The notes beneath the pieces were generated by a model. The model was not told the origin of the DNA. It searched no databases and was given only the letters and a program-made list of their open reading frames with translations. DNA of 64,000 bases from an uncultured Clostridia bacterium (GTDB taxonomy: Bacteria > Bacillota > Clostridia > Oscillospirales > Ruminococcaceae). Positions 8,918-22,993 of this stretch are shown piece after piece (positions within the stretch are counted from its first letter, which is position 1; each line of letters begins with the position of its first letter). The stretch is taken from positions 1-64,000 of the forward strand of contig CANQNF010000004.1 of NCBI GenBank assembly GCA_947625125.1. Direction: 5' to 3'. Position numbers and translations under genes: made by a program.

Positions 8918-9041
8918 GATGTGGCCAAGGCGGCCACATCAAGAATACAGAAGTCAGAAGTCAGATGTCAGAACTTCAAGGTGTCGCCTGCGGCGATAAT
9001 TTTAAAAATAGTGAATAATGCGGGCGATTTAGACACTCCCC
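8918..9041 (+). repeat. Dispersed structured repeat, copy A
   Basis: This copy begins with the hairpin GATGTGGCC-GGCCACATC. Then come the conserved linker AAGAATACAGAAGTCAGA, a second hairpin TCGCC-TGC-GGCGA, and a tail AATAATGCGGGCGAT ending in ACTCCC. Other copies are at 9055, 33408 and 44987; see the finding on covariation. Confidence 0.8.
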
Positions 9042-9054
9042 GGCATAGGATACA

Positions 9055-9179
9055 AGATGTGTCCAAAGAGAAAACATAAAGAAAACAGAGTTCAGAAATC
9101 AGATATCGGAATTTCAAGGTATCGTTTGCAACGACATTTAAAAATAGTTAATAATGTGTGCGTAATGCACATTCCCCCC
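9055..9179 (+). repeat. Dispersed structured repeat, copy B (degenerate)
   Basis: It follows copy A directly in the same orientation. The first hairpin is damaged (GATGTGTCC with no good partner), but TTCAGAAATCAGA, TTTCAAGG and the second stem TCGTT-TGC-AACGA are kept. In that stem both sides differ from copy A, with pairing preserved. Confidence 0.7.
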
Positions 9180-9214: not shown

Positions 9215-9557
9215 TCAGCGTATAAGCTCGTTTTTTCCTGCCCGAAGTATCTCCGCAGCCCTGTCGTTCCATATCGCCTGACAAATTTGCTGATACATAC
9301 AGCTACCATTCTAACGTGCTATCAAACAATTCATGATAAACTGCCTTGATGTCCTCGTTGCAATAATCAATATTTCGGTCGGTGCGCTCCCCGTCAACAT
9401 TCGCAGCCTTAAATTTGCGGCTGTTGTGATTGACCGAACCTTTGCCGACCTACGAACGCGGGGTTTTGTCCGCAAACACGAGCAATCAATCGCTCACGAT
9501 TGCGAAGTGTGAGCGGCAACAAAACCAGCTTTCGTTTGCGCTAATCGTTCTTTTCAT
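9215..9557 (-). pseudogene. MobV-family relaxase, internally deleted and interrupted by an 84-nt hairpin
   Basis: The start (ATG 9557, MKRTIS) and first 55 codons match the mob copy at 21770-22993. The middle is deleted, and the gene resumes with the last 30 codons (ICQAIWNDRAAEILRAGKNE). After codon 7 the 84-nt hairpin repeat 9452-9535 is inserted and brings an in-frame stop. Removing exactly those 84 nt would give MKRTISAKVGKGSVNH against MKRTISAMVGKGSVNH in the other copy. Mob/Pre relaxases nick oriT to start conjugative mobilization; this one cannot be functional. Confidence 0.82.
9452..9535. repeat. 84-nt covarying hairpin element, copy 1
   Basis: The stems from outside in are ACGAA/TTCGT, GGTTTTGT/ACAAAACC, CCGC/GCGG, ACAC/GTGT and CAATCG/CGATTG with a 4-nt loop. 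Copy 2 is at 22353-22436. The two copies sit at different codons of homologous mob genes, so they inserted separately. Confidence 0.85.
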
Positions 9558-21769: not shown

Positions 21770-22993
21770 TTATAAAATTTTTTCAGATTTCCGATTCCTC
21801 GCCAAAATCTCCGCAGCCCTGTCCTCGCCTATCGCCTGACAAATTTTCCGATATTTGCGACTATCCTCCCGCAGCTCGACGTTTTCTCGCAGCAGCTTTT
21901 TGTTATGCTCGCTGACCCGCACATAACTGTTCTCTTTTCGGTCAAATTTCGCCTTTAATTCGCGATTCTCGGCTTGCAAATCAAGCACCGAATGATACAA
22001 TGACTTGACGAGCCGAACCGCCTTGTCAAGCACAGGTTTTGCCTTTTTCTCACGGTAGGTTTTTGCGGATTCCAGCGCTCCTGCCTCGGGCAAAATCTTA
22101 TCCACATCTTCGGGAAAATCAGCCGCCAACCTCTCCGCGCTTTTCAACTTGGGAACGGTCTGATTCAACTGCTTTTCGACCGCTTTCAAGTCCTTTTTTG
22201 CGGATTCAATCTCGGCGTTAAGTTGCTCAACCTCCTCAGCACGCTGTTTCTTCTCAAAGTCCAGAACCGACAAATGCTTTTCGTGTGTGCCTTTCTGCTC
22301 CCATTCAATTCCGTGGTTGAGCATTACCTCGGCGAGAGCCTGTTTCTCGGCGATGAACGCGGGGTTTTGTCCAAGAGGACGAGCAATCAATCGTTCACGA
22401 TTGCGAAGTCCGATTGGCAACAAAACCAGCTTTCATTGTACCCACTGATTCCACTCGGTCATTCCCCTTGTGCCGCCTTTAAAGCCGAGCGTGGCAAGTG
22501 CCTGTTTTAGCGAAACGCGGGTATCCAATCCCCGCTTGCTACCCGTGGTAAATGGAACGAAGTCAATATGCAGGTGCGGGGTAGCTTCGTCCATGTGCAG
22601 GTGAGCCGAGAACACCCGCAGGCTCGGGTTGCGCTCTTGAAAGTCCCGAAAATACTCGTCCAAAACCTGTTTGGCAAGCTTGCCGTTCTCGGTGGTCGCA
22701 CCCATGTTATCTTTATCACCAATCTGCAAAATTGCCTCATGGAACGGCTTCTCCTGCTTACCCGAGTGAATCTTCTCATAGTAGTCGGAGATTTTCCTGC
22801 CCTCTCGGGTCTGCTTGGCATTGTACCGTTCCAAAGCGTCATCAAAAAGCTCATGATAGACAGCCTTGATGTCCTCATTACAATAATCAATATTTTGGTC
22901 GGTGCGCTCGCCGTCAACATTCGCAGCCTTGAATTTTCTGCTGTTATGGTTCACCGAGCCTTTGCCGACCATCGCGCTTATTGTTCTTTTCAT
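21770..22993 (-). pseudogene. MobV-family relaxase interrupted by the 84-nt hairpin
   Basis: The N-terminal part (22433-22993, MKRTISAMVGKGSVNHNSRK) has the relaxase region, including SAHLHMDEATPHLHIDFVPF (metal-binding histidines). The C-terminal part (to 21770) is a long coiled coil (EEVEQLNAEIESAKKDLKAV) ending ICQAIGEDRAAEILARNRKS. Between WVQ and EKQALAEVM lies the 84-nt hairpin 22353-22436, which brings an immediate TGA. Exact removal of the 84 nt restores one frame (W-V-H-A-E-K-Q). Without some bypass the relaxase is truncated after its catalytic domain. N-terminal Mob fragments alone might still nick oriT. Confidence 0.85.
22353..22436. repeat. 84-nt covarying hairpin element, copy 2
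   Basis: The stems from outside in are ATGAA/TTCAT, GGTTTTGT/ACAAAACC, CCAA/TTGG, GGAC/GTCC and CAATCG/CGATTG. Of the positions that differ from copy 1, ten fall in five base pairs in which both partners changed. Confidence 0.85.

Follow-up and report, generated by a model that had tools for sequence, protein, structure and literature searches.

The question raised by this locus is what an 84-nt hairpin is doing inside two separate Mob genes of one stretch of DNA, and why the two copies differ by base changes that leave every stem paired. The stretch analyzed here, 64,000 nt in full, is referred to as the window. Copy 1 lies at 9452..9535 and copy 2 at 22353..22436, both on the plus strand, and each is followed at its 3' end by a T (9536..9536 and 22437..22437, plus strand) that the empty relative also carries at that place. 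Comparison of the two copies reproduced exactly what the initial annotation had described: 84-nt hairpins at these positions with 12 differing letters, made up of five pairs changed on both sides plus two unpaired positions, with no one-sided stem change (0). On the evidence set out below, we consider it quite probable that this hairpin is mobile DNA: short, non-coding, non-autonomous, and likely recognized by its shape.

Folded as RNA, both strands of both copies gave z scores of −4.25 to −5.70 against 200 dinucleotide shuffles, and the plus strands of the two copies folded as DNA gave −4.28 and −5.07, again against 200 dinucleotide shuffles. The number of shuffles folding as well as the native copies was 0/200 in every RNA and DNA case. 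The window contained 0 matches to Rfam families at gathering thresholds.

A covariance model of the two window copies, a search that had been proposed from the outset, uncovered a large family, with 39 matches in this genome, 38 of them with E below 1e-6; a model built on 27 copies found at least 73 copies in the same genome. Across 31 genomes of the genus, 14 carried from at least 16 to at least 118 copies, one (G004) carried a single copy, and 16 carried 0, these counts being lower bounds with at most 123 candidates scored per genome. An order-wide sample of 295 genomes, scored with at most 12 candidates per genome and with stricter filters than the genus search, gave matches in 3 only, all from the same genus (1 of 148 genera). 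In GTDB genomes, a 27-base pattern taken from the commonest form had exact matches in 59 stretches belonging to 7 assemblies, all from uncultured Clostridia. The isolate names of these seven assemblies all begin with Lapin, and from the French word we would guess that they are rabbit-gut samples. Copy 2 had no match in phage and plasmid collections and the 27-base pattern had no exact match in viral contigs, which speaks against spread via phages or plasmids. The hairpin is a short, non-coding, multicopy element, so far known from part of one uncultured Clostridia genus. We recognized no description of the 84-nt repeat among the matches listed in a literature search, several of the queries being too broad to be telling.

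Some copies are intergenic, like the three in locus L150 that are located between two long open reading frames, and others lie inside genes. With genic and intergenic copies pooled, the 84-nt spacing to the right end of the element was found at 115 of 140 distinct places carrying its left end. A side observation is that L150:1585-2013 consists of three tandem units at 159-nt spacing, with one 84-nt element per unit; a 264-nt spacing recurs in L131 and in G024:C34.

Read from the outside in on the plus strand of the window, the unit has a 5-pair outer stem, a C, a GC pair block, two bases, and 8 pairs, and then continues into a core of two 4-pair stems, each followed by a G-A loop, and an apical stem with its tip. 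We call the outer part the shell (36 nt; stems of 5 + 2 + 8 pairs) and the inner part the core (48 nt; stems of 4 + 4 + about 6 pairs). The G-A loop letters A24, G60, and A61 are conserved and the tip is variable: in 151 distinct 84-mers, position 24 was always A, G60 was present in 147, and A61 was present in 143, while positions 66, 67, and 76 and the tip varied. Several core types exist, the short form is 68 nt, and copies were found nested within other copies.

The initial annotation had proposed that structure is maintained by selection or by the way the element moves, and this is borne out by the conservation of pairing across the family. Both-sided change was seen in 203 of 774 cells among 27 copies (shuffled mean, 57) and in 707 of 2910 cells among 101 distinct copies (shuffled mean, 203; slid structures, 54-101), in alignments that were fitted to the structure and so somewhat favor it, and with kinship between copies inflating the excess over shuffles. 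The alignment of 137 distinct copies, fitted in the same way, contained 3696 Watson-Crick, 27 G-U, and 31 A-C pairs in 3919 cells. At the 19 outer pairs of the 151 distinct 84-mers, the corresponding numbers were 2792 Watson-Crick, 19 G-T, and 25 A-C of 2869, and on the strand read from both neighboring genes there were 7 G-T and 7 A-C. For comparison, G-U made up 28 of 417 bracketed pairs in 20 distinct tRNAs from these loci, against 19 in 2869 for the element (Fisher p 2e-14); the tRNA brackets mark standard pairs only and so are silent on A-C, there being 18 mismatch-marked positions in the 20 tRNAs. Relative to the local coding strand, 65 of the 139 copies with the commonest shell type ran with it and 74 against it. 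Because G-U is no commoner than A-C and orientation is random, an RNA function is disfavored. Pairing is conserved at the level of DNA, with no RNA-pairing signature.

How the both-sided changes arise can be followed in copies that occupy the same site. Trees within same-site groups, which used 163 of 173 scanned 84-mers (10 were left out as having no loop letters), showed 3 both-sided, 43 one-sided, and 119 unpaired changes between copies 1-8 letters apart, 5, 2, and 32 between copies 9-16 letters apart, and 58, 12, and 62 between copies 17-40 letters apart. Comparisons between genomes gave 2 both-sided, 6 one-sided, and 24 unpaired changes in 11 pairs with ≤8 differences, picked for that small difference; the numbers were 4, 2, and 16 in two pairs and 96, 17, and 107 in 11 distant pairs. 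In 7 of 27 site groups, the shell differed between two alleles at only 1-7 of 36 positions and the flanks at 1-12 of 40, with 21-31 of 48 differing in the core; two of these seven groups lie among the repeat families of a single genome and may reflect independent insertions. In the group made up of L057, L156, and others, the flanks share junction letters unlike the empty site, which suggests one insertion followed by a later core swap. Large both-sided differences at the same site are mostly a swap of the inner 48 nt within a constant shell. Given such block exchange, copies 1 and 2 need not have come by their both-sided changes slowly, one pair after another. When the same site was compared between genomes, changes affected 10 of 638 stem positions, 24 of 286 unpaired positions, and 24 of 440 flanking positions, so that stems were slower than flanks (p 5e-4).

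Sites filled in one genome proved to be empty in relatives, a comparison that the initial annotation had also called for. In the loci examined, an empty relative was found for 61 of 149 copies, forming 27 site clusters, some of which represent one site split in two (e.g., L057/L018 and L072/L011). The presence or absence of copies differs between species of the genus. The net insertion equaled the element length in 9 of the 27 clusters and was one off in 12, and thus fell within one base in 21; the difference spanned −4 to +2, limits that the filter imposed. By eye, no target duplication was seen at the empty sites. We scored flank preferences over ten positions on either side of the element at 50 distinct sites. 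The base at +1, just past the 3' end, was T at 47 of the 50; upstream of the 5' end, −1 had no preference and −2 was C in 25 of the 50. Of 25 clusters in which the filled site has its T, 7 had T at the empty site, 10 had A, 5 had C, and 3 had G. A T at so few empty sites disfavors it as a target requirement. The junctions suggest that the terminal T probably comes with the element and that about one target base is often lost. With ragged junctions and the T usually missing from the empty site, it is uncertain where exactly the element ends.

Hairpin tips did not emerge as preferred targets: 4 of 27 empty sites were in loops, compared with 18.9% of 534 control positions, and 15 of 27 were in stems, compared with 38.8% of control positions. 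One palindrome with internal loops, CAAGATTC..CCGCG..CCAAATTTGG (L134:361-420), has taken up the element at its tip repeatedly and is filled in L014, L018, L057, L138, L139, L145, L151, and L156.

Both window copies sit within minus-strand Mob genes, so the strand with the conserved G-A loops, the plus strand, is antisense to each. The first, mob1 (9303..9557, minus strand), is a remnant with its start codon at 9557-9555, copy 1 after codon 7, and a stop at 9305-9303. The second, mob2 (21770..22993, minus strand), matches Mob_Pre (PF01076) in its front part and is open except for a single TGA, which lies where copy 2 has its edge; mob1 was identified by sequence common with mob2. Copy 1 is a net insertion of exactly 84 nt relative to L192, L049, and mob2 of the window, and copy 2 one of exactly 84 nt relative to L192 and L052. 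An in-frame stop inside the insert was present in both genes, as the initial annotation had stated. Its further claim that precise excision of 84 nt restores the Mob frame fared less well: the mob1 frame runs for only 48 codons past the insert before a stop, and, judged from the positions of repeats D2 and D6, mob1 is without some 960 bases present in mob2, so that restoration means little for copy 1. Two imperfect direct repeats of 41 nt each, 136 nt apart (D7), lie near mob1 at window positions 9001-9177.

Mob genes have been struck independently at least four times, by copy 1, by copy 2, and at L049:1008 and L052:1426. The L052 gene is open throughout, and its protein has exactly 28 extra residues relative to that of its relative, no removal being needed; L051 (no Pfam family) and L066 (a Mutator-type transposase) are also open across the element. 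In L051, L052, and L049 the open reading of the element is the peptide phase NESWFC...DKTPRS. The element in mob1 is entered in this same phase, and its core supplies the stop there. The genic insertions at L049:1008 and L029:1501 are both net +83, with the L049 frame shifted thereafter. Open in L051, L052, and L066, closed by stops in both window genes, and net +83 in L049 and L029, the element within a gene adds 28 codons, brings in a stop, or shifts the frame, and its phase and core determine which.

Multicopy spread, empty sites, and kept pairing support the option, raised in the initial annotation, of a hairpin-based mobile element with REP-like behavior. As we picture it, an enzyme acting in trans would use shape and G-A loops to recognize the folded DNA, whether single-stranded or cruciform, and would insert it together with the terminal T, often at the cost of about one target base. 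Copies unable to fold would cease to spread, and cores would be exchanged among copies by recombination through the near-identical shells. The block exchange is a pattern in the data; that it proceeds by recombination, and that an enzyme in trans carries out the insertion, is what we think most likely. It is possible, if doubtful, that the element represents a class of hairpin-only mobile DNA in which folded shape and paired G-A mismatches, and not sequence, are recognized by an undescribed enzyme and the core is a swappable cassette passed among copies inside a constant shell.

The split within the genus, with at least 16 copies in 14 of 31 genomes, a single copy in one, and none in 16, makes a search for the mobilizing factor tractable. 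Looking for Y1 transposases and reverse transcriptases turned up no mobilizing enzyme common to the copy-rich drafts. Seven of the 14 copy-rich genomes have the Y1 transposase (PF01797), as does 1 of the remaining 17 (p 0.011), although the draft assemblies may miss it; as it was not found in seven copy-rich drafts, including G019 with 66 copies, we disfavor it as the sole mobilizer. Reverse transcriptases, some of which the drafts may likewise miss, were found in 6 of 14 and 2 of 17 genomes, respectively (p 0.10), and are disfavored on the same grounds, 8 of the 14 copy-rich drafts yielding none. A resident IS200-like element (L090 and L087), examined by eye, has hairpin ends unrelated to the 84-nt element, so the earlier suggestion of an IS200/IS605-like or REP-like element stands for REP-like behavior and fails for ends in common with this IS200-like resident. 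The GC skew at the 139 copies was positive for 67 and negative for 72; on this local measure, a weak proxy, there was no sign of the replication-strand bias that single-strand insertion of the IS200/IS605 kind predicts. No longer, autonomous partner with the same shell was found among 140 left-shell places in the loci examined (GGTTTTGT shell type).

SbcD (TIGR00619), part of a palindrome nuclease, was found in 10 of the 14 copy-rich genomes, G021 among them falling below the family cut-off, and in 2 of the other 17 (p 0.001), a comparison confounded by ancestry. The protein may be there in answer to the palindromes. The idea that the lineage became permissive by losing SbcCD was rejected, the trend being the opposite. 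One of the two SbcD-positive genomes outside the copy-rich set is G004, the holder of the lone single copy.

The hairpin might instead preserve Mob function, as a signal for translational bypass or for its own removal at the RNA level, and its length, a multiple of three, and the net +84 of both window insertions look at first sight like points in favor. The usual length of the family is 84 nt, however, so frame restoration is a by-product. The net +83 genic insertions, the Mob one running on in a shifted frame, the remnant state of mob1, the L052 gene reading through its 28 codons, and the antisense orientation of the conserved-loop strand in both window genes all argue against such a signal, and removal from RNA is further disfavored by the lack of the preference for G-U over A-C that an RNA role should leave behind. 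On this sequence evidence, we would regard either version as extremely improbable. A broader alternative is that the copies are functional cellular structures, such as transcript ends or sites for RNA processing or nucleoid proteins, that spread earlier and are now under selection. The slower change of same-site stems than of flanks and unpaired positions would also fit a host function of this kind, as would the placement of some copies between genes, but there is no wobble preference even on the strand read from both neighbors, orientation is random, presence or absence varies between species of the genus, and insertions occur within genes. We consider a present cellular function quite improbable.

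It is also conceivable that no dedicated enzyme is involved and that replication template switching together with short-homology repair acts at palindromes in a permissive lineage. A single template switch is enough to change both sides of a stem (PMC8794818), and the process would suit the block exchange inside near-identical shells, the ragged junctions, the nesting of the element in other palindromes, and the presence in the same DNA of another hairpin repeat whose stems differ yet match. Against it, a specific reaction is suggested by the element's constant length and by the T that follows its 3' end. Correction templated by the opposite arm predicts many isolated both-sided changes, whereas close same-site copies had 3, against 43 one-sided, and it should erase the G-A mismatches, which are conserved. 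Nor does a permissive lineage agree with SbcD being commoner, not rarer, in copy-rich genomes (10/14 versus 2/17). We therefore think this explanation unlikely and prefer a shape-recognized mobile element.

Such a mobile element can be compared with known palindromic repeats. REPIN is a name used for REP-type elements. REP/BIME sequences and their TnpA-REP, of the HUH superfamily, are described as short palindromes, many per genome, which the enzyme is believed to mobilize in trans while they are single-stranded and folded; one group has conserved stem mismatches, and the palindrome is preceded by a conserved tetranucleotide, mostly GTAG (PMC8266576). The 84-nt element resembles REP/BIME in being a short palindrome in many copies with conserved stem mismatches. 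It differs in having no fixed adjoining tetranucleotide, only the +1 T being fixed (50 sites), in its 84-nt length with shell and core, in Y1 not being found in 7 of 14 copy-rich drafts, and in having copies also in genes. Rickettsia palindromic elements are about 150 bp, inserted in frame and open in unrelated protein genes (PMC10969869), and their stems lose repeat identity over time (PMC6649704). Like them, our palindrome occurs in frame in unrelated genes and can be open, as the peptide NESWFC...DKTPRS; unlike them, it is 84 nt, some of its genic copies have stops or a frameshift, and its stems stay paired.

The yeast mitochondrial GC clusters (GC42) are portrayed as short mobile palindromes with a constrained stem, merging and shuffling of units, and an unsettled mechanism (PMC4478555). 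The 84-nt element is likewise short, palindromic, and stem constrained, with shuffled units, but it is bacterial, shows no target duplication (GC clusters bear a putative one), and has a fixed 84-nt architecture with G-A loops. MITEs are small, non-autonomous, inverted-repeat elements (PMC10969869). These three properties hold for the 84-nt element as well. A target-site duplication is usual in MITEs, but none was seen here, nor was any longer element with the same shell present among the 140 left-shell places. Integron attC sites are known by a GTT core site and by cassette arrays that come with an integron integrase. The comparison of palindromic repeats drew also on PMC2267715. Overall, the element works like REP, Rickettsia palindromic elements, and yeast GC clusters and departs from, or leaves open, the defining features of each.

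Both-sided base changes are commonly taken as strong evidence of functional RNA, in PMC8794818 among others. In this family they are abundant, come without an RNA signature, and are largely whole-core exchange, which calls for caution in covariation-based RNA discovery. The element offers a natural case of palindromes spreading through bacterial chromosomes while keeping their arms matched.

A second hairpin repeat is present at L112:1920-1955 and also in L118, L150, and other loci. Its stems differ but match (AAGCCCTT/AAGGGCTT, CAACCTTT/AAAGGTTG, and GAGCCTTT/AAAGGCTC) and stand before GATCCTAAACT-like sequence. Of 44 places scored, 30 were hairpins, in 12 forms, chosen by pairing score, so that their pairing is partly selected. 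The 84-nt element is sometimes found in or beside this second repeat.
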